IMG/VR virus record: IMGVR_UViG_3300046777_000769
Coordinates: 1 to 38,878 of that record
Source of the DNA: a virus
Direction: 5' to 3' (one strand)
Length of the DNA: 38,878 bases
Shown here in pieces: positions 24,924 to 38,833 of this stretch (its first letter is position 1; each line of letters opens with the position of its first letter). Below the pieces are notes generated by a model. That model was not told the DNA's origin. It searched no databases and saw only the letters and a list, made by a program, of their open reading frames with translations. Made by a program: the position numbers and the translations under genes.

Positions 24924-27900
24924 TCAATGGGTCGAGGATAGTCCAATAAAGAGCCTGTGCATTTGGATTATCTTTCGCAATTGTTACTAATGTGTCTTTA
25001 AGGTCTGCTCTAATTTCTTTTCTGCGGAATTCGGCAATCGCTGTTGAGCCTTGATTGTTCTTTATGTTAACTTGACCAGCATCATAGACACCAATCATTG
25101 CTGAAAACACCTCAGACAACTTAGCATTAGGTGCTTTGCCTGAGTAGATAAGGCTACGTAAGTCATCTAGTGCATCTATCTTTGGTTGCTTTGTTCCTTC
25201 TTGTGTTCCCAAGTATGTCTTGAGTATAGGATATGCAACCTTCAAAGCATTCTGTGCATTTGTAAGGTCTGTTCGTAGTGCTCTTTTTTCAACAGGATTC
25301 TGTGCATTAGCAATCTTCTCGTTGAATCTATCTGAGACCTCATAGTATGTCTTACGTGCATTGGCTGTAGCAGCCTCTAACAAGAAATCTTCAAGGACTT
25401 TGTTCTTAACAAAACCTTGAGCCTTGAGATAGGCATAAGATTCATAGTCATTTGTGCCGCTAATTGGGATAAAGAATGATGCACCCTGCTTGTGCTCAAG
25501 CATAAGTTCCTTATTCTTCTTTACAAAGTCTGCTGCTTCGTATGTCTTTTGGAAGTTAGCCTGAGTTCCAGCATCTGTCTTTGCCACAGTAAATACCAGT
25601 TTAGATGGGTAGATTCTAGCAAATTCAACCAATGCCTTAGAAAAAGCCTTTGGGTCACCCTCGTGACGCTTGATAAACTTCTGGAATTCTGAGTCCCAAC
25701 TAAATACTCCAGCGTCAACCAGTTCCTTAGGGATATCCTTGGTAGCAAACAACTGAACAGATGCAGGTGCACCTAGTCCAGTTACAAAGCGGACAGCCTG
25801 TAGATTGATTCCTTGGACGGTTGCATCTCTTAGGAACTTGTCAATATCTGATGGCTTAGTAGGTCCATTGCCGTTAGCAATATTCATTTTCATAGCCTGG
25901 ATGATTGCAGAGAATCGGTAATCTGCAGTTGCTGAGCCACCATAGAAGATATCTCCTAGGCGCTGAGCGTTAGCAGGTAACAATTTGCGCCATAGAGGAG
26001 CATCGACATTGTATGAACCAGTTACAACACCCTCTGCACCCTTGATATATTCTCCAATGTATGGAAGATTCTCAAAGAGTGAGAAAGCGATTGACACTAA
26101 AGGTCCACCAAGACGGGGTGCTGCAGACTCTGGGTCAAGTGATGGTGTAAGCATCTTGACTTTACCACCAAAGTTAATTGGTAGTGGCTGTGAGCCACCC
26201 ATACCAAATACTCTTAGTATAGTTTCGCCAAGAACAACATTGAGAATGTCATCTCCTGGATAGGTAAAGTACAACTCACCCTTGTCATCTGTGTGTACAA
26301 AGCCTGAGTGCTCAAAAGACTGGTTAGCAATAGCAAGGCGCACAAGTGCACGCTTCTCATACTTACCAATTCTGGCTACGCGACGGTAGAAGTCTTCGGT
26401 TGCTCTGTAATAACGACCAAATGTACGAAGATTAAAAGCAAGGTTTGTACGAACATCTGAATTATCAACATATCCGAGAGTTCTTGTACGTGCTGCATCT
26501 AGCGCTGTGTCGTGTGCAGCCAATCTTGCCATTGCTTCAGCAGTAGCATCATCGGCACCTGCGGCTAAAGCGTTCTTTTTGATTAATTCCTGATATGGTC
26601 GTAGGTCATCACGGAACATTACGTAGTTTCCAAGCGTAATTGGTTCTCTGTCTAGCAGAGCAATTTGCTTTCCTACCCAACCATAGCCATTATTAATAAC
26701 TCTATAGATTGCTTGCTCAGGTGTTCCTGCACCTAGCGGAATAATTTCTTTTCCTAAGATAGCGCGAGGACGTGCCCAGTCAACATCGTACTTTACTAGG
26801 TCATCTAGCGTGAAGTTTTCCATACCACCCTTGTCGCGGATAGCCTGAACTAACTTCTTGTTTATACGACCAGCAGAATCACGAAGTGCATATGTGCTGT
26901 CTGCATAAATTCTACGGGCTAAGCCCTCTGAACCCTCTGATGCGTAAATAGCAAACTTCTTAGCAAGTTCATTTCCAGGTCCGTCAATATATTCACGAAG
27001 TAGGCTAACAACTGTGTCTTCGTTCTTGTTAATATTCCACAAGACGATATTTCCAAATTGTCCGTTACGCTTACCTACTGTGTTATTGAGTTCAAAAAAC
27101 CAGTTGAGTAGGAACTTATCGTTGGTTGACCCAATCTCAGTGAATTCCTTGCCAAACTTTAGACCCTTCATTGACTCTACGATATCTACGTTGTAGGCAA
27201 TTGATGGACCAAACTGCTTTAGGCTATTTGCTGTCTCTTCAACCTCTGAAACTGTACGCTCTGCGCGATAAGATGAGCCATTGATGTCATCAAGAACTGA
27301 CTTACCGTTAAAGCGTGCAAAATCCTGAGTGTACTCAGACAAGCGTTGTCCTGCTGCGGTCTGGAACAAAGAAGGCTTGAAGCGATTCTTAATTACAGCG
27401 TTAGCAACTGCAACACCTAGTGCCTCTGGGTCATCAGCCATAGCAATTAACTCATCTTTTGAGTAATGCTTGCGTGTAATCTTGTAAAGATTGTTGTAAA
27501 TAATTCCAAGATTTGGTGTGCTGACTTCCTTTTGACCAATAATTGTGGTCTTCATACCAGGCAATTGCGCTGCGCGAAGTTCGCGGGAAGCAATACGTCC
27601 CTTGAGGTAGTTACCAAATCCTTCAGAACCAGCAATAATTCCGTACATTCCTACTTCTTCAATAGTTGTACGAATACCAAGACGTGGGAAAAGGTTACCA
27701 AAAGACCAAGCGTCTGTTACAACGCGAGCAGTGTAAGAATCGCTGACCTTACCCATAATTGCCTTGGTTACACCAGAACGTGCAGCGAATTTACGCCACT
27801 CATCTAGTTGAGGTAGGGCGCGTTGCTGGTTTAGTTGATACTGACGGATAGCAAATTGCTGTCCATTCATCTCAGCAGCATTAAATCTACCAAGGTCAAG

Positions 27901-33509: not shown

Positions 33510-35375
33510 CTATCCGTATTGTTGTGACCACTGGTCAGCAAACGCATCATCTAAGTTGATTGCAAATCTGCGCTCCGTCTGAGCACGAGTTGCCCAACGG
33601 TTGCTTTGATACTGTGCTGCTTGACTTGACCTTTGCATTAACTCTCTGATGCGGATAACCGCAAACCATAGAGCCATTACAACGTCAGTGGGGTTTCTGG
33701 TATCTGGCTTCCAAGTAATGAGTTCCTGCACTAAGGTCTTGAGACCTTCAGAGCCTTCATTGCTTGGTAGTTCGATAATGTTGTTATCTTGGAATCTGCC
33801 ATCTCGTGTGTTACCAAACAAGGTAGCCATAGATGCCACACCAAAAGAAGTGTCCCACTTGTTCTTTCCAGTAAAGTGTGAATTCAGTTGCGTACCGTAA
33901 CCTGCTAAGAAGTTTCGTAGATGGTCGTCCAGCGCATACGCTTTCTGATGAGCATTGATTTCGATACGCAATTCCTGAGGGCGGTATTTCTCCACCCAAT
34001 CTTCGATTAAATTTTGAATCTTCTGTGGAGTAGGGTCTGTCATATTGACAGCATCTAGCACATAGATTTTTCCGTCAGCCTTGTTGTAGGTACAGACCAC
34101 CGCTCCTGTTGCACCTGCCATAGCAGGGTCAAGACCAATGATGGTGTAGCCCTCAACGTGACGAGGATGACCTGGGTTACCAGCCTTTAGCGGTCCTCTT
34201 TTTCGCATTCCGTTGACGGAGCCTGCGACACAGGTAGGTGAGAAGATTGAGTCTTCTTGGACATCTTCCTGTTGGTAGACCATAGCCCAGACAGATGGCG
34301 CCACTTCAGAGCGGCGTGTAAAGAGAGCGGGTCCATCCCATTTCGGATAAAGTCCGTCGGCATCAGGTTCGTCCACATCTCCTTCGGGTCTGTCAGTCTT
34401 AGCCCAAAGGGTTTTCCAATTCAAAGGTTTTTCGTCAAACTCTAAAACTGCTGGCATAGCCATATAGGTGAAGGGCGATTTACCACCAGTCCACTGGGAG
34501 CCATCACGTAGCATCTTGTAGAGGTCAATCGGTGCCACTCTGGTTCCAACGATAATAAGTTTACCGTAGCGACCAAGACGGGTAATAACTTCCTTCTGAA
34601 GCCATTCCATCTGCTTTTCCCACTCGTGAGCATTAGAGCCCATCACAGCGTCGTCGACAATAATCAAGTCGGCACGAGCACCATAAATCTGGGAACCAAG
34701 TCCTAGTGCTTGAACAGTTGGGTCTTTCTCGCCACTATCGCGTCCTGTACCCAAGTAAATCATATCTGCAGACCACGTAGTGGCGTCTGCCTTATATCCG
34801 CCATTTGGACCAAAAGCGGTCTGCAGTTTGATATAGGCGGGGTGGTTGAGGCGAGTCTTAATCGCACCAAGGAACTTGCGTGCCATACCCTGAGTCTTTG
34901 AGACAATGATGACTCGTGAGTTAGGGTTGGTCACAATCTTGTAGACCACGTAGTTGGTCGTGATGACTGTAGACTTTGCGTGCTCAGGTGGCACGTTGAT
35001 GAGCACTCTGTTGAGAGCACCTGGCTCAAAGGTCATACTAGGATGTAGCCAGCGCGGCTCGCGCCCCTCAATCAGGTCAATCCAGTTGAGGTGGTGGGGG
35101 AACATCTTGGTATCTAGGAACTGCTCACAGAAGTCGACGAAGGAGATTTCCTTCAGGTCGCCTAGGTCAGCGATAACACCCTTGCCTACCAGGCGGGCTT
35201 TGTCAGAGCGTTCCTTGAACTCAGGTTCATTCATTGTCCACTGGCGGAAGGTGACGTCGTTGCGTCCCACAGATGCCATAGCGGCTGTAATAGTAGAACC
35301 TTGTTCTAGTTGGAGCAGAACTTTCTCCTGCGCCTCGCGCTTGGGGATGTTCTGAATTCCTGGCTTGCGTCCCAT
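33510..35375 (-). CDS. Terminase large subunit with N-terminal helix-turn-helix
   Basis: 621 residues. Walker-A-like V-P-P-E-H-A-K-S-T at 128-136, Walker B L-I-I-V-D-D at 237-242, and the RNase-H-like nuclease motifs I-G-L-D-P-A, R-I-E-I-N and D-V-V-M-A-L-W in the C-terminal half. It powers DNA packaging and cuts the concatemer. The first ~60 residues (T-I-T-A-A-M-A-S-V-G-R-N-D-V-T-F-R-Q-W) resemble the DNA-binding helix-turn-helix usually found in a separate small terminase, and no separate small terminase is recognisable. First gene of the late operon. Confidence 0.9.
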   Translation of the reverse strand: MGRKPGIQNIPKREAQEKVLLQLEQGSTITAAMASVGRNDVTFRQWTMNEPEFKERSDKARLVGKGVIADLGDLKEISFVDFCEQFLDTKMFPHHLNWIDLIEGREPRWLHPSMTFEPGALNRVLINVPPEHAKSTVITTNYVVYKIVTNPNSRVIIVSKTQGMARKFLGAIKTRLNHPAYIKLQTAFGPNGGYKADATTWSADMIYLGTGRDSGEKDPTVQALGLGSQIYGARADLIIVDDAVMGSNAHEWEKQMEWLQKEVITRLGRYGKLIIVGTRVAPIDLYKMLRDGSQWTGGKSPFTYMAMPAVLEFDEKPLNWKTLWAKTDRPEGDVDEPDADGLYPKWDGPALFTRRSEVAPSVWAMVYQQEDVQEDSIFSPTCVAGSVNGMRKRGPLKAGNPGHPRHVEGYTIIGLDPAMAGATGAVVCTYNKADGKIYVLDAVNMTDPTPQKIQNLIEDWVEKYRPQELRIEINAHQKAYALDDHLRNFLAGYGTQLNSHFTGKNKWDTSFGVASMATLFGNTRDGRFQDNNIIELPSNEGSEGLKTLVQELITWKPDTRNPTDVVMALWFAVIRIRELMQRSSQAAQYQSNRWATRAQTERRFAINLDDAFADQWSQQYG

Positions 35376-35423
35376 TGGTGCCCCCTAAAGTCGCCCTCTG
35401 TAGAGGTTATAAAACGATGTATA

Positions 35424-35557
35424 AACGGTACCCGTTAGACGGCATAACTGTGGTAACTATTAATTAATTATTATATATATTAAGGATTAACCGTAGAGCA
35501 AACGGAGGTTAATCCGTTAAAGATTATTATTAATCTTTACATATAAGATAACCCGTT
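35424..35557. repeat. Iterated AACGG/CCGTT palindromes upstream of the late operon
   Basis: AACGG-TAC-CCGTT (35424-35436), GGATTAACC (35484-35492) with GGTTAATCC (35507-35515), AACGGA (35501-35506) with TCCGTT (35513-35518), TAAAGATTA (35518-35526) with TAATCTTTA (35531-35539), and one more CCCGTT (35552-35557). Overlapping, so only some can form at once. Likely operators for late-gene control or origin iterons. Confidence 0.5.
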
Positions 35558-35631
35558 GGAAGTACCAAAACCGAACACTTAATATCAATATATTTTTAAA
35601 TATTTTTATAAGGGGGGCTAATATATATAAA

Positions 35632-35650
35632 AGCCCTGGTCAGCAGGGCT
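35632..35650 (-). terminator. Hairpin with leftward U-run
   Basis: AGCCCTG (35632-35638) pairs with CAGGGCT (35644-35650) around a 5-nt loop. In the leftward direction it is followed by TTTTATATATA, the shape of a rho-independent terminator. It could stop stray leftward transcription entering the late promoter area, or attenuate the late transcript if the promoter lies upstream of it. Confidence 0.5.
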
Positions 35651-35677
35651 ATTTAGCAAATATAACAGAAAATTATT

Positions 35678-35746
35678 GGGTGAGTGTACATATATGTATC
35701 GACGACAAATTAAACACTCTGGGGTCAAAATGTCCAACACTCACCC
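35678..35746. repeat. Long-spaced inverted repeat
   Basis: GGGTGAGTGT (35678-35687) and ACACTCACCC (35737-35746) are perfect 10-bp complements 49 bp apart, with a further palindrome ACATATATGT just inside the left arm. Could be paired repressor sites for DNA looping, or a long RNA stem. Confidence 0.5.
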
Positions 35747-35760
35747 TTATCTAGAGTCTT

Positions 35761-35789
35761 AGACATACGCAAGGGTTATGTCTAACCCT
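35761..35789. promoter_or_regulatory. Two mutually exclusive hairpins
   Basis: AGACATA (35761-35767) with TATGTCT (35777-35783), and AGGGTTA (35772-35778) with TAACCCT (35783-35789), are both perfect 7-bp stems. They share bases 35777-35778 and 35783, so only one can form at a time. This is an attenuator-like or overlapping-operator layout. Confidence 0.5.
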
Positions 35790-36020
35790 ATACCTTAGGT
35801 TTATCCCTGAGAATAATAACATTTCTCACCCCTTGGGGGGTGAAGAATAATCGAATGGGATTAGTAAGGAACTTATGTTGGGTGACTATCCCCCTGCCAA
35901 ATTCGCGGGGTCTAGTCTTTATTGAATTCGGGGCTATCAATAAGGGGAAGATAGTTGAACATTCAACCACTTACTCACTCTTCAATTGTCGACAAATCGA
36001 CAGACACAGAGGGCAATCGG

Positions 36021-36036
36021 TGTGATGTAACTCACA
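36021..36036. promoter_or_regulatory. CRP/GlxR-type operator
   Basis: TGTGA-TGTAAC-TCACA is a perfect match to the CRP half-sites TGTGA-N6-TCACA and also to the corynebacterial GlxR form TGTGANNTANNTCACA, including the central TA. It lies 32 bp upstream of a TTGACA, at a distance where CRP could activate a rightward promoter. It may link early transcription to host cAMP state. Confidence 0.6.
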
Positions 36037-36067
36037 GGAAATTAACCACAAATGACCATTTTATCGC

Positions 36068-36073
36068 TTGACA
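36068..36073 (+). promoter_or_regulatory. Possible -35 element of the rightward early promoter
   Basis: A perfect TTGACA hexamer between the CRP-type site and the LexA box. No good -10 lies 16-18 bp downstream (sequence there is GACCTT), so the promoter may depend on an activator or use another -10 such as TACGCT (36074-36079) with a poor -35. Tentative. Confidence 0.35.
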
Positions 36074-36127
36074 TACGCTTTAAAAAATGAGACCTTTCTC
36101 TCACAAGGGCAAGCAAGCCCCAAGAAT

Positions 36128-36161: not shown

Positions 36162-36293
36162 ATGGAACTAACAACACGCGAACAGGCTCTAATCGCTTTC
36201 GCTCTCACAGTAGTTGCAGCAGGCGGCGCACCTGTAATAAATGCAAGCAGCGATGAACTCTTAGACCTCTCACGAAAGATAATTAAGGGCTAA
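36162..36293 (+). CDS. First early gene: small hydrophobic-helix protein
   Basis: 43 residues from ATG 36162, chosen over an upstream in-frame start because ACAGGAGAA precedes it and the upstream part overlaps the LexA box. L-I-A-F-A-L-T-V-V-A-A-G-G-A-P-V is a hydrophobic segment, followed by an amphipathic helix. Could be membrane-associated. Function unknown. First gene under the putative LexA/CRP control. Confidence 0.5.
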   Translation: MELTTREQALIAFALTVVAAGGAPVINASSDELLDLSRKIIKG

Positions 36294-36301
36294 GCATTAC
36301 C

Positions 36302-36347
36302 GCCCCCCGCCCGTATCGACGGCGTAGGTTCAAGACCTACGGGGGGC
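36302..36347 (+). ncRNA. Mini-tRNA-like RNA element 1
   Basis: GCCCCCC (36302-36308) pairs with GGGGGGC (36341-36347): a 7-bp acceptor-like stem. A canonical T-arm (GTAGG, loop TTCAAGA, CCTAC; 36324-36340) stacks directly against it. The rest of a tRNA is replaced by 15 nt that fold into CCGT-ATCG-ACGG. It is followed by A and CTAGG instead of CCA, then a weak hairpin AAGGC/GCCTT (36355-36375) and the ACAGGAGAA box of the next gene. Too short to decode as a tRNA. Possibly an RNase P-recognised processing site. Confidence 0.6.
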
Positions 36348-36395
36348 ACTAGGCAAGGCAACACCGCCAAGCCTTACAGACAGGAGAACAAAAGA

Positions 36396-36557
36396 ATGAA
36401 GACTTACAGCATTGCCCTAAGAGTTAAGACATCAGACCCTGCAAGCATTCAAACGATTGAGTTTCATCTTCAAGACCTTTTAGAGTCTTCAATCTTGCCC
36501 GCCCTTAATCTTGAACTAGTACCTCTCACTCTTACAGTTAAGAAAGCGAGAGGTTAA
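36396..36557 (+). CDS. Hypothetical 53-residue early protein
   Basis: ATG after ACAGACAGGAGAA. Pattern Y-S-I-A-L-R-V-K-T-S, a central helix (T-I-E-F-H-L-Q-D-L-L-E-S-S-I-L) and L-V-P-L-T-L-T-V-K-K: a beta-alpha-beta unit. No family recognised. First gene after RNA element 1. Confidence 0.55.
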   Translation: MKTYSIALRVKTSDPASIQTIEFHLQDLLESSILPALNLELVPLTLTVKKARG

Positions 36558-36561
36558 AAAA

Positions 36562-36729
36562 ATGAGTTACAACCCAGACACCCAACAGAGCAGCCTTTTG
36601 CACGATTTAGCCGACGCGATTACATCACACCAAGCACTAGACCAAGCGGTCAGCGTACTAATCGAATGGGGCTTAGTAGATGCAGACTTAGGCGCGGAAT
36701 ACATCAAGGAACACGAGGGCAACAACTAG
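36562..36729 (+). CDS. Hypothetical 55-residue early protein
   Basis: Helical and acidic (L-L-H-D-L-A-D-A-I ... D-Q-A-V-S-V-L-I-E-W-G-L). Starts four bases after the preceding stop, so translationally coupled, and ends just before RNA element 2. No family recognised. Confidence 0.55.
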   Translation: MSYNPDTQQSSLLHDLADAITSHQALDQAVSVLIEWGLVDADLGAEYIKEHEGNN

Positions 36730-36737
36730 GCAAGACA

Positions 36738-36779
36738 GCCCCCGCGCTACGGGCTACGGGTTCACAATCCGACGGGGGC
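36738..36779 (+). ncRNA. Mini-tRNA-like RNA element 2
   Basis: GCCCCCG (36738-36744) pairs with CGGGGGC (36773-36779); the T-arm-like hairpin ACGGG-TTCACAA-TCCGA (36756-36772) lies directly against the stem. Pair 7 is G-C here and C-G in elements 1 and 3, a compensatory change. The 11-nt insert (36745-36755) pairs weakly, but CCCG/CGGG (36741-36744 with 36750-36753) can form a competing hairpin. Followed by ACTAGG and a strong 7-bp hairpin (36783-36801), then TAAGACAGGAGAA. Confidence 0.58.
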
Positions 36780-36829
36780 ACTAGGTAGGGAATTCCTACC
36801 TTGCAAGACCTAAGACAGGAGAAAAGTAA

Positions 36830-36991
36830 GTGAGAGAGTATTTCGAAATCGGATTGAATTCCTACGGGTTCAAGGTTGAAACGGGGCTAATTGATTTCTA
36901 CATCACCCCGCAAGGGCTAGCCCTAGGCATCGCCCTAATCGTAGCCCTAAGAGTTCGCAAGGTTCTAAAAACCCGCAAGGCGGGCAACTAA
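36830..36991 (+). CDS. Small membrane protein
   Basis: 53 residues from GTG, with AAGACAGGAGAA upstream. One hydrophobic helix (G-L-A-L-G-I-A-L-I-V-A-L, about 29-40) followed by a strongly basic tail (R-V-R-K-V-L-K-T-R-K), so probably a single-span protein with the basic end inside. Could modify the host membrane or block superinfection; no family recognised. Confidence 0.55.
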   Translation: MREYFEIGLNSYGFKVETGLIDFYITPQGLALGIALIVALRVRKVLKTRKAGN

Positions 36992-37098
36992 TGAGCAAGC
37001 CACTCTTTACTCAAGAACTATTAAAAGAAATCCAAGAGGAACAGGCGGAATTTTGGGCGGAATTCTGGCAAGCAAACGAAAGCAAGGAGGGTAAATAA
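36991..37098 (+). CDS. Hypothetical 35-residue protein
   Basis: One acidic helix rich in Glu and Trp (L-L-K-E-I-Q-E-E-Q-A-E-F-W-A-E-F-W). Its ATG overlaps the previous TAA and its TAA the next ATG. Real by its tight coupling; function unknown. Confidence 0.5.
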   Translation: MSKPLFTQELLKEIQEEQAEFWAEFWQANESKEGK

Positions 37099-37193
37099 TG
37101 ACAAAAGTTTGTCGTGAGTGCGCTCGCGCTTTCAATCTAGAAGATAACCGCGACGCGGAGGAATGGTATTACGGGCACGATTGCGAAATGTGA
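37098..37193 (+). CDS. Tiny zinc-site protein
   Basis: 31 residues with C-R-E-C at the start and G-H-D-C-E near the end, a C-x2-C ... H-x-C arrangement that could bind one zinc. Start overlaps the previous stop. Its own stop lies inside a TGTGAG/CTCACA hairpin (37189-37204) that directly precedes RNA element 3. Confidence 0.5.
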   Translation: MTKVCRECARAFNLEDNRDAEEWYYGHDCEM

Positions 37194-37204
37194 GGCAACT
37201 CACA

Positions 37205-37252
37205 GCCCGCCACTCTTGACAGAGGGCACAGGGAGCGAGACCCTAGGCGGGC
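37205..37252 (+). ncRNA. Mini-tRNA-like RNA element 3
   Basis: GCCCGCC (37205-37211) pairs perfectly with GGCGGGC (37246-37252). The T-arm-like hairpin CAGGG-AGCGAGA-CCCTA (37229-37245) is again 17 nt with a 7-nt loop, against the stem. The insert holds CTCT-TGAC-AGAG (37213-37224). Pair 5 is G-C here and C-G in the other two copies. The loop lost TT but keeps the tRNA C56 and A58 positions. Flanked by hairpins 37189-37204 and GGGA/TCCC just after, then ATGACAGGAGAA. Confidence 0.58.
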
Positions 37253-37289
37253 ACGGGAACAATCCCACAAATGACAGGAGAAAAAAGAA

Positions 37290-37610
37290 ATGCCACAGTT
37301 AAACCAGAGAGACGCGATTCACTACATCGCAACACGCCAAGAGTTTAAAGCGTCAGCCCTAACAGGGGTAAACGTAAACGAGCAAGGCTTGAGCGGTGCA
37401 TTCGGTAGATTAGACGCTCAAGAATTCGCACAGATTAAGCAAGACGAAACCCGCATAAATTACGCGGTTTACTCATACGGCACGCCTATAGCGTGGCACA
37501 CAGACGCGGAGGGCTGGTATGTCGTAGAACAAAAGTTCAGCCCGACAACAAGCAAGCACCAGGGCTATGTCCGCCGCGCTATTGCCGAGAGTTTGCAGGG
37601 GGTGAACTAA
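37290..37610 (+). CDS. Conserved-looking phage early protein, 106 residues
   Basis: ATG after ATGACAGGAGAA. Alpha/beta pattern with I-N-Y-A-V-Y-S-Y-G-T-P-I-A-W-H-T, then G-W-Y-V-V-E-Q-K-F-S-P-T-T-S-K-H-Q: strands followed by a basic segment with S-K-H-Q-G-Y-V-R-R. This pattern looks familiar from small actinophage early proteins, but I cannot name a domain or function. Confidence 0.6.
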   Translation: MPQLNQRDAIHYIATRQEFKASALTGVNVNEQGLSGAFGRLDAQEFAQIKQDETRINYAVYSYGTPIAWHTDAEGWYVVEQKFSPTTSKHQGYVRRAIAESLQGVN

Positions 37611-38017: not shown

Positions 38018-38364
38018 ACGAAGGATTGAAGCAGTCAGACCCTGCCTACATTATGAGCCAAGCAGAGGAAGAGGCGATTGCCGCCATAGAAGAGGCAGGG
38101 CATAACCTTGCAGCGGTTCGCGCTTATCGTGAGTATGTAGGCGAGGACTACACGCCCCTCTTAGATTGGGAAGATTGGATTGACGATTTCACAGACTCTT
38201 ATCAAGGGGAGATGGAGACCGAAGATTTTGCGGAGCAATTAGCCGAGGAATTTTTTGATTTAAGTTCACCGCTGGGAAATTATTTTGATTTTGAAAAGTG
38301 GGAGCGTGACCTATTTATGGGTGACTATTGGGAAAACGACGGACACATTTTTAGGAGTATGTAA
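38014..38364 (+). CDS. ArdA-like antirestriction protein (short)
   Basis: 116 residues, very acidic. F-T-D-S-Y-Q-G-E-M-E-T-E-D-F-A-E-Q-L-A-E-E, then Y-F-D-F-E-K-W-E-R-D-L-F-M-G-D-Y and D-G-H-I-F-R match the middle and C-terminal parts of ArdA, a DNA mimic that blocks type I restriction enzymes. Typical ArdA is about 165 residues, so the first domain is missing or replaced by an unrelated helix (about 1-40). Fits an early gene that protects incoming phage DNA. Confidence 0.75.
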   Translation: MNEGLKQSDPAYIMSQAEEEAIAAIEEAGHNLAAVRAYREYVGEDYTPLLDWEDWIDDFTDSYQGEMETEDFAEQLAEEFFDLSSPLGNYFDFEKWERDLFMGDYWENDGHIFRSM

Positions 38365-38438
38365 TGCCAATTTGTGGAGATTGCTTACGCCCTGTTAACG
38401 AGTGCCACCACGGACAAGAACTAAAGCGGAAGTGTTAG
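38364..38438 (+). CDS. Tiny Cys/His-rich peptide
   Basis: 24 residues: C-G-D-C ... C-H-H-G ... K-C. The ATG overlaps the ArdA-like stop (TAATG). Could bind zinc or iron. It overlaps the start of the nuclease gene, so it may serve mainly to couple translation. Confidence 0.42.
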   Translation: MPICGDCLRPVNECHHGQELKRKC

Positions 38439-38833
38439 CCCTTGCGCTAGCCCTAACCCTTACTTTTCCCGTCGCGGTAGATGGCGACACGATACAAAGC
38501 GGTGAGTCTTTCATCCGACTTGTACAAATTAAGGAGGCGACAGAATACACCGCAAAATTTTTAAAACTAAAGGGAAAACTGGTCTTGACTACAGATAAAA
38601 ATCTAGATAGTTTTGACGGGTACGGCAGGGCACTAGGTTATTTGACAAAGGGAAACCGAAATCTAAACCTAGAGTTAGTTAAGTTCGGGTATGCAAAGCC
38701 TTATTTCTACAAGGGAATAAGGGGAAAGTACGCAAACTTAATCGAGAAATACGCTAGACAAGCAAAAGCAAATCGCTTAGGCTTATGGAAATGCAACGAC
38801 AGGAGAATAGAATGGAACAAGAAGAGCAACTAA
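38402..38833 (+). CDS. Staphylococcal-nuclease-like (SNase) protein
   Basis: 143 residues from GTG. V-D-G-D-T, I-R-L-V-Q-I, D-G-Y-G-R-A-L-G-Y and A-N-R-L-G-L-W are the ordered SNc motifs; the catalytic Asp, Thr and both Arg positions are present. The N-terminus (R-T-R-T-K then L-A-L-A-L-A-L-T-L) looks like a signal or membrane segment that runs straight into the first domain strand, which is unusual. A GTG at 38432 is an alternative start. It could degrade host or competing DNA, or act outside the cell. Confidence 0.75.
   Translation: MPPRTRTKAEVLALALALTLTFPVAVDGDTIQSGESFIRLVQIKEATEYTAKFLKLKGKLVLTTDKNLDSFDGYGRALGYLTKGNRNLNLELVKFGYAKPYFYKGIRGKYANLIEKYARQAKANRLGLWKCNDRRIEWNKKSN

Follow-up and report, generated by a model that had tools for sequence, protein, structure and literature searches.

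An RNA family of anticodon-less mini-tRNAs between the early genes of phages

The window analysed here is a complete stretch of 38,878 bases from a virus record, whose nearest records in annotated collections are OX376640 and OX376641 (81-82% identity), the phages E7 and F5, whose host is the freshwater actinobacterium 'Ca. Planktophila' strain LanE-43 (PMC10202952). Near its right end, a leftward terminase gene and a rightward run of very small genes beginning at 36162 are separated by an A+T-rich intergenic region with several inverted repeats (35380-36060), and an ORF at 38402-38833 was read by eye as a candidate thermonuclease (SNase-like). The leader of the first early gene contains a promoter-like TTGACA at 36068, recognised by eye only, and a hairpin followed by a ACAGGAGAA-type box, and no mini-tRNA is present in this leader. 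Within the run of small genes, three copies of one RNA design are found, each located 8-11 nt past a stop codon and with a GACAGGAGAA ribosome-binding box downstream (Table 1).

An earlier note on this DNA had described these copies as a perfect 7-bp outer stem stacked on a T-arm-like hairpin, with an insert of 11-17 nt in place of the D and anticodon arms, and its coordinates proved exact, as did the outer stems and the insert lengths. The 5-nt T-stem arms that it assigned to all copies are fully paired in element 1, but the first pair is open in element 2 (A.A) and in element 3 (C.A), leaving T-stems of 4 bp, of which that of element 2 also has one G.U, and hence the stacked helix comprises 7+5 or 7+4 bp. 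Element 1 reads GCCCCCC, a 15-nt insert, GTAGG-TTCAAGA-CCTAC and GGGGGGC, with the pairing of acceptor and T-arm complete; element 2 reads GCCCCCG, 11 nt, ACGGG-TTCACAA-TCCGA and CGGGGGC; and element 3 reads GCCCGCC, 17 nt, CAGGG-AGCGAGA-CCCTA and GGCGGGC. Joint changes at stem pairs 5 and 7 and at T-stem pairs 2 and 3 occur just as had been claimed, and the insert of element 3 is a small hairpin in itself, which covaries in relatives. The T-loop of element 1 fits the TTCRANY consensus up to position 58; those of elements 2 and 3 do not, since the canonical 54-58 pair is absent, with C at position 58 in element 2 and A at position 54 in element 3. All three elements are directly followed by A-C. 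Given the broken first T-stem pairs and irregular T-loops of elements 2 and 3, the window copies represent the degenerate end of the family described below.

Table 1. Features of the early region of the window.
Feature	Position	Strand or direction	Details
Terminase	33510-35375	leftward	
Hairpin TTCGAAC-AAAT-GTTCGAA	36127..36144	+	leader of first early gene
First small early gene	36162..36293	+	ends 8 nt upstream of element 1; ORF listing opens the frame at 36087
Mini-tRNA element 1	36302..36347	+	acceptor 36302-36308/36341-36347; insert 36309-36323; T-arm 36324-36340; A73-C74 36348-36349
Possible inverted repeat AAGGC...GCCTT	36355..36375	+	3' of element 1; a longer predicted fold pairs otherwise
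Gene with GACAGGAGAA box	36396-36557	+	box 36379..36388 (Shine-Dalgarno)
Small early gene	36562..36729	+	ends 8 nt upstream of element 2
Mini-tRNA element 2	36738..36779	+	acceptor 36738-36744/36773-36779; insert 36745-36755; T-arm 36756-36772; A73-C74 36780-36781
Hairpin AGGTAGG-GAATT-CCTACCT	36783..36801	+	just 3' of element 2; sequence and predicted fold
Gene with GACAGGAGAA box	36830-36991	+	box 36814..36823
31-codon early ORF	37098..37193	+	ends 11 nt upstream of element 3
Hairpin TGTGAG-GCAA-CTCACA	37189..37204	+	contains UGA stop 37191-37193; abuts G1 of element 3; predicted fold
Mini-tRNA element 3	37205..37252	+	acceptor 37205-37211/37246-37252; insert hairpin 37212-37228; T-arm 37229-37245; A73-C74 37253-37254
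Hairpin GGGA-ACAA-TCCC	37255..37266	+	just 3' of element 3; sequence and predicted fold
Gene with GACAGGAGAA box	37290-37610	+	box 37273..37282

Every copy was likewise confirmed to have a stop codon on its 5' side and, on its 3' side, a hairpin or inverted repeat plus GACAGGAGAA. Folding z-scores are -3.7, -2.4 and -3.3 for elements 1, 2 and 3, respectively, and the minimum-energy fold of 37185-37289 (z -4.1) consists exactly of a GNRA hairpin holding the UGA stop, the abutting mini-tRNA and the downstream hairpin; this upstream GNRA hairpin had been missed by the earlier note, as had the spread of the family far beyond this phage. With the covariance model R1, element 1 scores 51 bits (E 4.9e-6), and in covariance searches element 3 reaches 68 bits (E 5e-9) and element 2 is weak alone (E 0.43). 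An element identical to element 1 is carried by phage E7 (locus L001, 22326-22371), and orthologues of element 2 were found in loci L001, L002, L004 and others.

None of the 4227 Rfam models matched the window at gathering thresholds and relaxed thresholds gave no family either, by which a known RNA family was ruled out; in loci L415-L419 from the wider family, the only Rfam matches were mascRNA (E 0.34), antisense Plastid-ycf2 and whalefall-1, all below cut-off. ARAGORN called 0 tRNA or tmRNA genes in the window, the E7 locus and the F5 locus, by which a tRNA or tmRNA gene was discarded; the inserts of 11-17 nt in the window copies also speak against the anticodon arm of a canonical tRNA gene. 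A tRNA-derived phage attachment site was rejected on account of several copies per genome with differing stems, DNA operator sites because the letters vary while the pairing stays, and T7-type RNase III early sites, with a duplex of about 20 bp, because the stacked helix here has only 11-12 bp. A literature search returned no description of the elements, in agreement with the note, which knew of no such family; its coverage of subscription journals was thin, so that an earlier description is possible. The elements constitute a real RNA family that is absent from Rfam and undescribed as far as searchable papers show.

Relatives of the window phage were collected by a terminase search that gave 80 viral contigs. 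A strict descriptor found 47 matches in 83 loci as compared to about 5 in shuffles, and over 3.0 Mb the descriptor gave 241 matches against 8 in local shuffles. The set was extended with model R1 and by two rounds of pattern scanning in viral contigs; the first round yielded mostly unrelated stem matches in high-GC contigs, which were removed by a T-arm pairing filter. Covarying homologues, whose absence would have spoken against the elements, exist in the hundreds. Among 33 distinct sequences of the Planktophila-phage group whose inserts span 15-18 nt, pairing holds in 96% of cells, a figure that for acceptor and T-arm is partly by construction as both were used in sequence selection, with double changes at 12/15 pairs and a covariation score of 0.62 versus 0.18 after column shuffling and no more than 0.12 in slid controls. 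The four-pair insert hairpin, which lay outside the selection criteria, exhibits double changes at 4/4 pairs. The claim that base pairing is selected is thus strongly supported by compensatory change in relatives, including two cultured 'Ca. Planktophila' phages.

In 183 distinct members of this group with flanks, the base 5' of G1 is A in 149 and C in 33, position 75 is never C, and an upstream hairpin ending within 2 nt of G1 is present in 129 (24 expected), mostly ending at G1 or 1 nt off and with GCAA, GTAA and GAAA as the commonest loops, that is, GNRA dominant. UGA or another stop triplet begins at -14 in 120/183, about a ribosome footprint, and each window copy is followed by a new ribosome-binding site, as could be expected if the fold acted in place by binding or blocking a ribosome or translation factor, parting termination from the next initiation. 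In Gordonia and Streptomyces phages the stop codon mostly precedes G1 by 6-15 nt, which fits such a translational element as well, but by itself this role would leave the 11- or 12-bp helix, A73-C74 and the T-loop conservation unexplained, and it is considered unlikely. The Planktophila-phage class also has conserved loops that are not canonical for tRNA (NKCRNRA in the T-loop, TGACAG in the insert loop), as might befit the target of a phage RNA-binding regulator whose recognition of a tRNA-like fold is incidental; since a canonical tRNA core recurs in unrelated phages and in two phyla and speaks for a host factor that bacteria have in common, we regard this as very unlikely.

The family is far wider than this group. 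One pattern match was Mycobacterium phage Phantastic, in which the element lies exactly between genes 88 and 87, and BLAST with a 121-bp Phantastic stretch led to Gordonia, Streptomyces and Arthrobacter phages. Early regions of Gordonia and Streptomyces phages contain arrays of mini-tRNAs of canonical form: the T-loop begins TTCRA, the insert has a GG as in a D-loop, an anticodon arm is missing and the stacked helix measures 11 or 12 bp. The T-loops of Gordonia, Streptomyces, Mycobacterium and soil phages fit TTCRANY fully or nearly so. In Gordonia phage VanLee, inserts such as GATGGTTCTGCG and T-arms such as CGCCGG-TTCGATT-CCGGCG are found, and in Streptomyces phages phiScoe10 and Endor2 inserts such as ACYGGCAGACA; this Streptomyces-type insert resembles the D-loop of bacterial tRNA-Leu. 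With gaps of at least 55 nt defined by the deposited annotation alone, elements occupy 15 of 16 early gaps in VanLee, 9/10 in phiScoe10, 8/12 in Endor2 and 6/8 in Morgana. Shuffled sequence gave zero matches in nearly all cases, and shuffles overall gave 0-8 matches versus 15-241 in real sequence, which disposes of chance; the Streptomyces-phage set is 100% paired with a covariation score of 0.56 versus 0.15 when shuffled. Whole-genome searches with models R2 and R3 confined the matches in VanLee, Morgana, phiScoe10 and Endor2 to one part of each genome, in small early-type gene arrays except for the outliers VanLee 62138 and Morgana 68565, with one element each in Phantastic and Arthrobacter phage Pitbull and zero in phiC31, R4, T7, PA6, ReqiPepy6 and D29. 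These hundreds of homologues, several with fully canonical T-arms, lend strong support to the tRNA-mimic reading of the earlier note, and it is near certain that the structure and the family are real, their sequence, conserved pairing, position and breadth being directly observed. The lineages may share descent or may have arisen from tRNA convergently.

Some deposited annotations overlap the elements. Three ARAGORN calls (in VanLee, phiScoe10 and Endor2) of 83-91 nt cover mini-tRNAs and extend into their flanks, and in Endor2 a deposited 'tRNA-Arg', with which ARAGORN agrees, overlaps a mini-tRNA and a coding-gene end (L419 4370-4452; record 44378-44460), such that annotation software miscalls some mini-tRNAs as tRNA-Arg or tRNA-Val. 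In Pitbull, the annotated hypothetical gene gp39 (L418 4920-5066) spans the mini-tRNA (record 26353-26396) and may be spurious. Early gaps of loci L417 and L419 also carry repeated GTGACAGTGTGAG motifs beside the mini-tRNAs, perhaps R4-type stoperators, which the paper on the phiScoe phages notes in intergenic regions, the word tRNA being absent from its text (PMC10276819).

The numbers of copies, up to 16 model matches in VanLee, together with the conserved tRNA core features and the early expression to be expected, would also suit excised mini-tRNAs serving in trans as decoys for tRNA-binding host factors or tRNA-sensing defence proteins, with the lack of an anticodon protecting them from anticodon nucleases. 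Such a role is compatible with excision, but the stem sequences differ widely between copies, the copies lie between genes and not in one cassette, and their ties to stop codons and downstream hairpins are needless for decoys, making it quite unlikely.

The features that bear on processing were measured on 59 elements, taken from 14 loci, under a score that counted helix and T-loop alone, allowed up to 14 bp and put no constraint on the 3' end. The helix is 12 bp long in 31/59, 11 bp in 27/59 and 13 bp in 1/59, GG is present in the insert of 59/59, and the unconstrained 3' end has A73 in 50/59, C74 in 56/59 and C75 in 1/59. Downstream hairpins starting 2-9 nt past A73 are enriched (20/30 vs 7.3 and 13/27 vs 4.7); an upstream hairpin is moderately enriched in the Streptomyces set (12/30 vs 4.7), with no clear enrichment in the Gordonia set (6/27 vs 3.7). 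A CCA end would hinder RNase Z, and A73-C74 is followed here by G, T or A, leaving the discriminator without CCA, as in a substrate of this enzyme. The 12-bp T plus acceptor stem has been suggested as a measuring device of RNase P, residues 73-75 of the substrate base-pair with RNase P RNA in its P15 loop, and short acceptor/T-stem/T-loop hairpins are RNase P substrates (PMC11143913). The stacked helix of the mini-tRNAs agrees with this length, and of the three P15 pairs expected from R73-C74-C75 one is missing, as A73-C74 is conserved and C75 avoided.

Taken together, the helix length, G1-C72, A73-C74, the T-loop, the avoidance of CCA and the position between stop codon and ribosome-binding site are best explained if the mini-tRNAs are processing punctuation in a polycistronic early transcript, acting via host RNase P and possibly RNase Z, which we hold to be probable. 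Acceptor and T-arm would stack into one helix capped by the T-loop, with the D-loop-like GG facing the TTCRA T-loop in canonical members; host RNase P would cut 5' of G1, just past the stop codon of the preceding gene, and RNase Z, with no CCA in its way, may cut on the 3' side of A73. A long early message would thereby be divided into separate gene-cluster mRNAs. For the class of element 3, the upstream piece would carry the GNRA hairpin at its 3' end; the downstream piece would often have a hairpin close to its 5' end, with a ribosome-binding site of its own behind it. The mimicry, pairing and placement proposed earlier thus stand, and from the 11- or 12-bp helix, G1-C72, A73-C74 and the canonical T-loop we infer RNase P use, which had been part of the same proposal, and with it cleavage, the enzymes and any effect on mRNA stability or translation. 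Against this punctuation reading are the P15 pair lost with C75, the broken first T-stem pair in 2/3 window copies, the degenerate T-loops of copies 2 and 3, the upstream hairpin that is common only in the Planktophila-phage group, and the many early operons without elements, such as those of the six element-free phages above. Since the window copies are degenerate, they are weaker candidates for RNase P use than the copies of the Gordonia and Streptomyces phages.

A scan of 85,000 species genomes with the Streptomyces-type core gave nine loci, at least seven of which hold a mini-tRNA, with carriers in Kribbella, Actinocatenispora, Corynebacterium, a MAG filed as Gemmatimonadota and two Bacteroidetes loci. 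The actinobacterial loci are, judged from the clustering of matches, probably prophages; the Bacteroidetes loci (L426 and L430) have single mini-tRNAs beside a candidate Mu-type transposase and its ATPase, as read from ORFs. Model R3 at E 1e-6 matched 4/247 genomes of a first class and 1/149 of a second, which shows that the model does not respond to ordinary tRNA genes and that the element is no general cellular feature. Strong GC-rich stems between operon genes could also suggest a transcription terminator, attenuator or antitermination site; yet 12 model matches lie within about 3 kb in Actinocatenispora and would stop the operon, no U-tract follows the window elements (by eye), and neither the TTCRA loop nor the discriminator A-C is needed for termination. 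Intrinsic terminators, which leave the T-loop conservation unexplained, were accordingly rejected, and the broader explanation is highly improbable.

Close functional analogues of the mini-tRNAs exist. The mascRNA and menRNA of MALAT1 and MEN-beta (RF01684) are excised by RNase P and RNase Z and resemble the mini-tRNAs in having an acceptor, a reduced D region and a T-arm inside a longer transcript; an Endor2 element fits the mascRNA model only weakly (26 bits vs gathering 42.5), and mascRNA is a single copy in a human long noncoding RNA, unlike the many copies between phage genes. In mitochondria, tRNA folds between the genes of a polycistronic transcript mark processing sites, a function that here would be analogous, but those are working tRNAs, whereas the mini-tRNAs lack an anticodon arm and show no sign of a role in decoding. 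In tmRNA, the tRNA-like domain likewise combines acceptor, reduced D loop and T-arm without an anticodon arm, but the mini-tRNAs lack an mRNA-like part, and a tmRNA was rejected as none was called and the window copies have C3-G70 in place of the alanine identity pair G3.U70. The early operon of T7 has repeated RNA structures between its genes, which are cut by host RNase III, but fold and enzyme differ and the T7 duplexes are longer. Phage transcripts cut by host RNase P comprise phi80 M3 RNA, P1/P7 C4 RNA and T4 gene 32 mRNA (PMC11143913), but these are isolated cases, none of them a conserved fold repeated at gene boundaries.

Mitochondrial tRNA punctuation and isolated phage RNAs as RNase P substrates are thus already known, and anticodon-less tRNAs arrayed between the early genes of a DNA phage have, as far as found, not been described. 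If cleavage occurs, phages would have a new way of organising polycistronic mRNA; the mini-tRNAs would offer a natural test set for RNase P measuring (11 vs 12 bp, C74 without C75) and would mark unannotated boundaries of small genes. Several of the carriers have common laboratory hosts. More tentatively, a new phage RNA class may punctuate early operons for host tRNA maturation enzymes in at least two phyla, with the freed mini-tRNAs perhaps acting in trans on tRNA-dependent host functions.

Phage FlowerPower (L294, NC_048706) was rejected as a carrier, its early gaps having a different repeated hairpin instead. Most of these gaps contain a strong copy followed by a AAGGGGAGAGA-like ribosome-binding box (38037-38138, 39610-39678, 40533-40608, 41065-41140, 42042-42125, 42618-42717 and 44197-44267), possibly another gap-filling RNA element. 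At 33705-33942 of L294, a tRNA-like structure with a canonical T-arm and a 5-nt anticodon-type loop, which has no tRNA annotation, was recognised by eye only.
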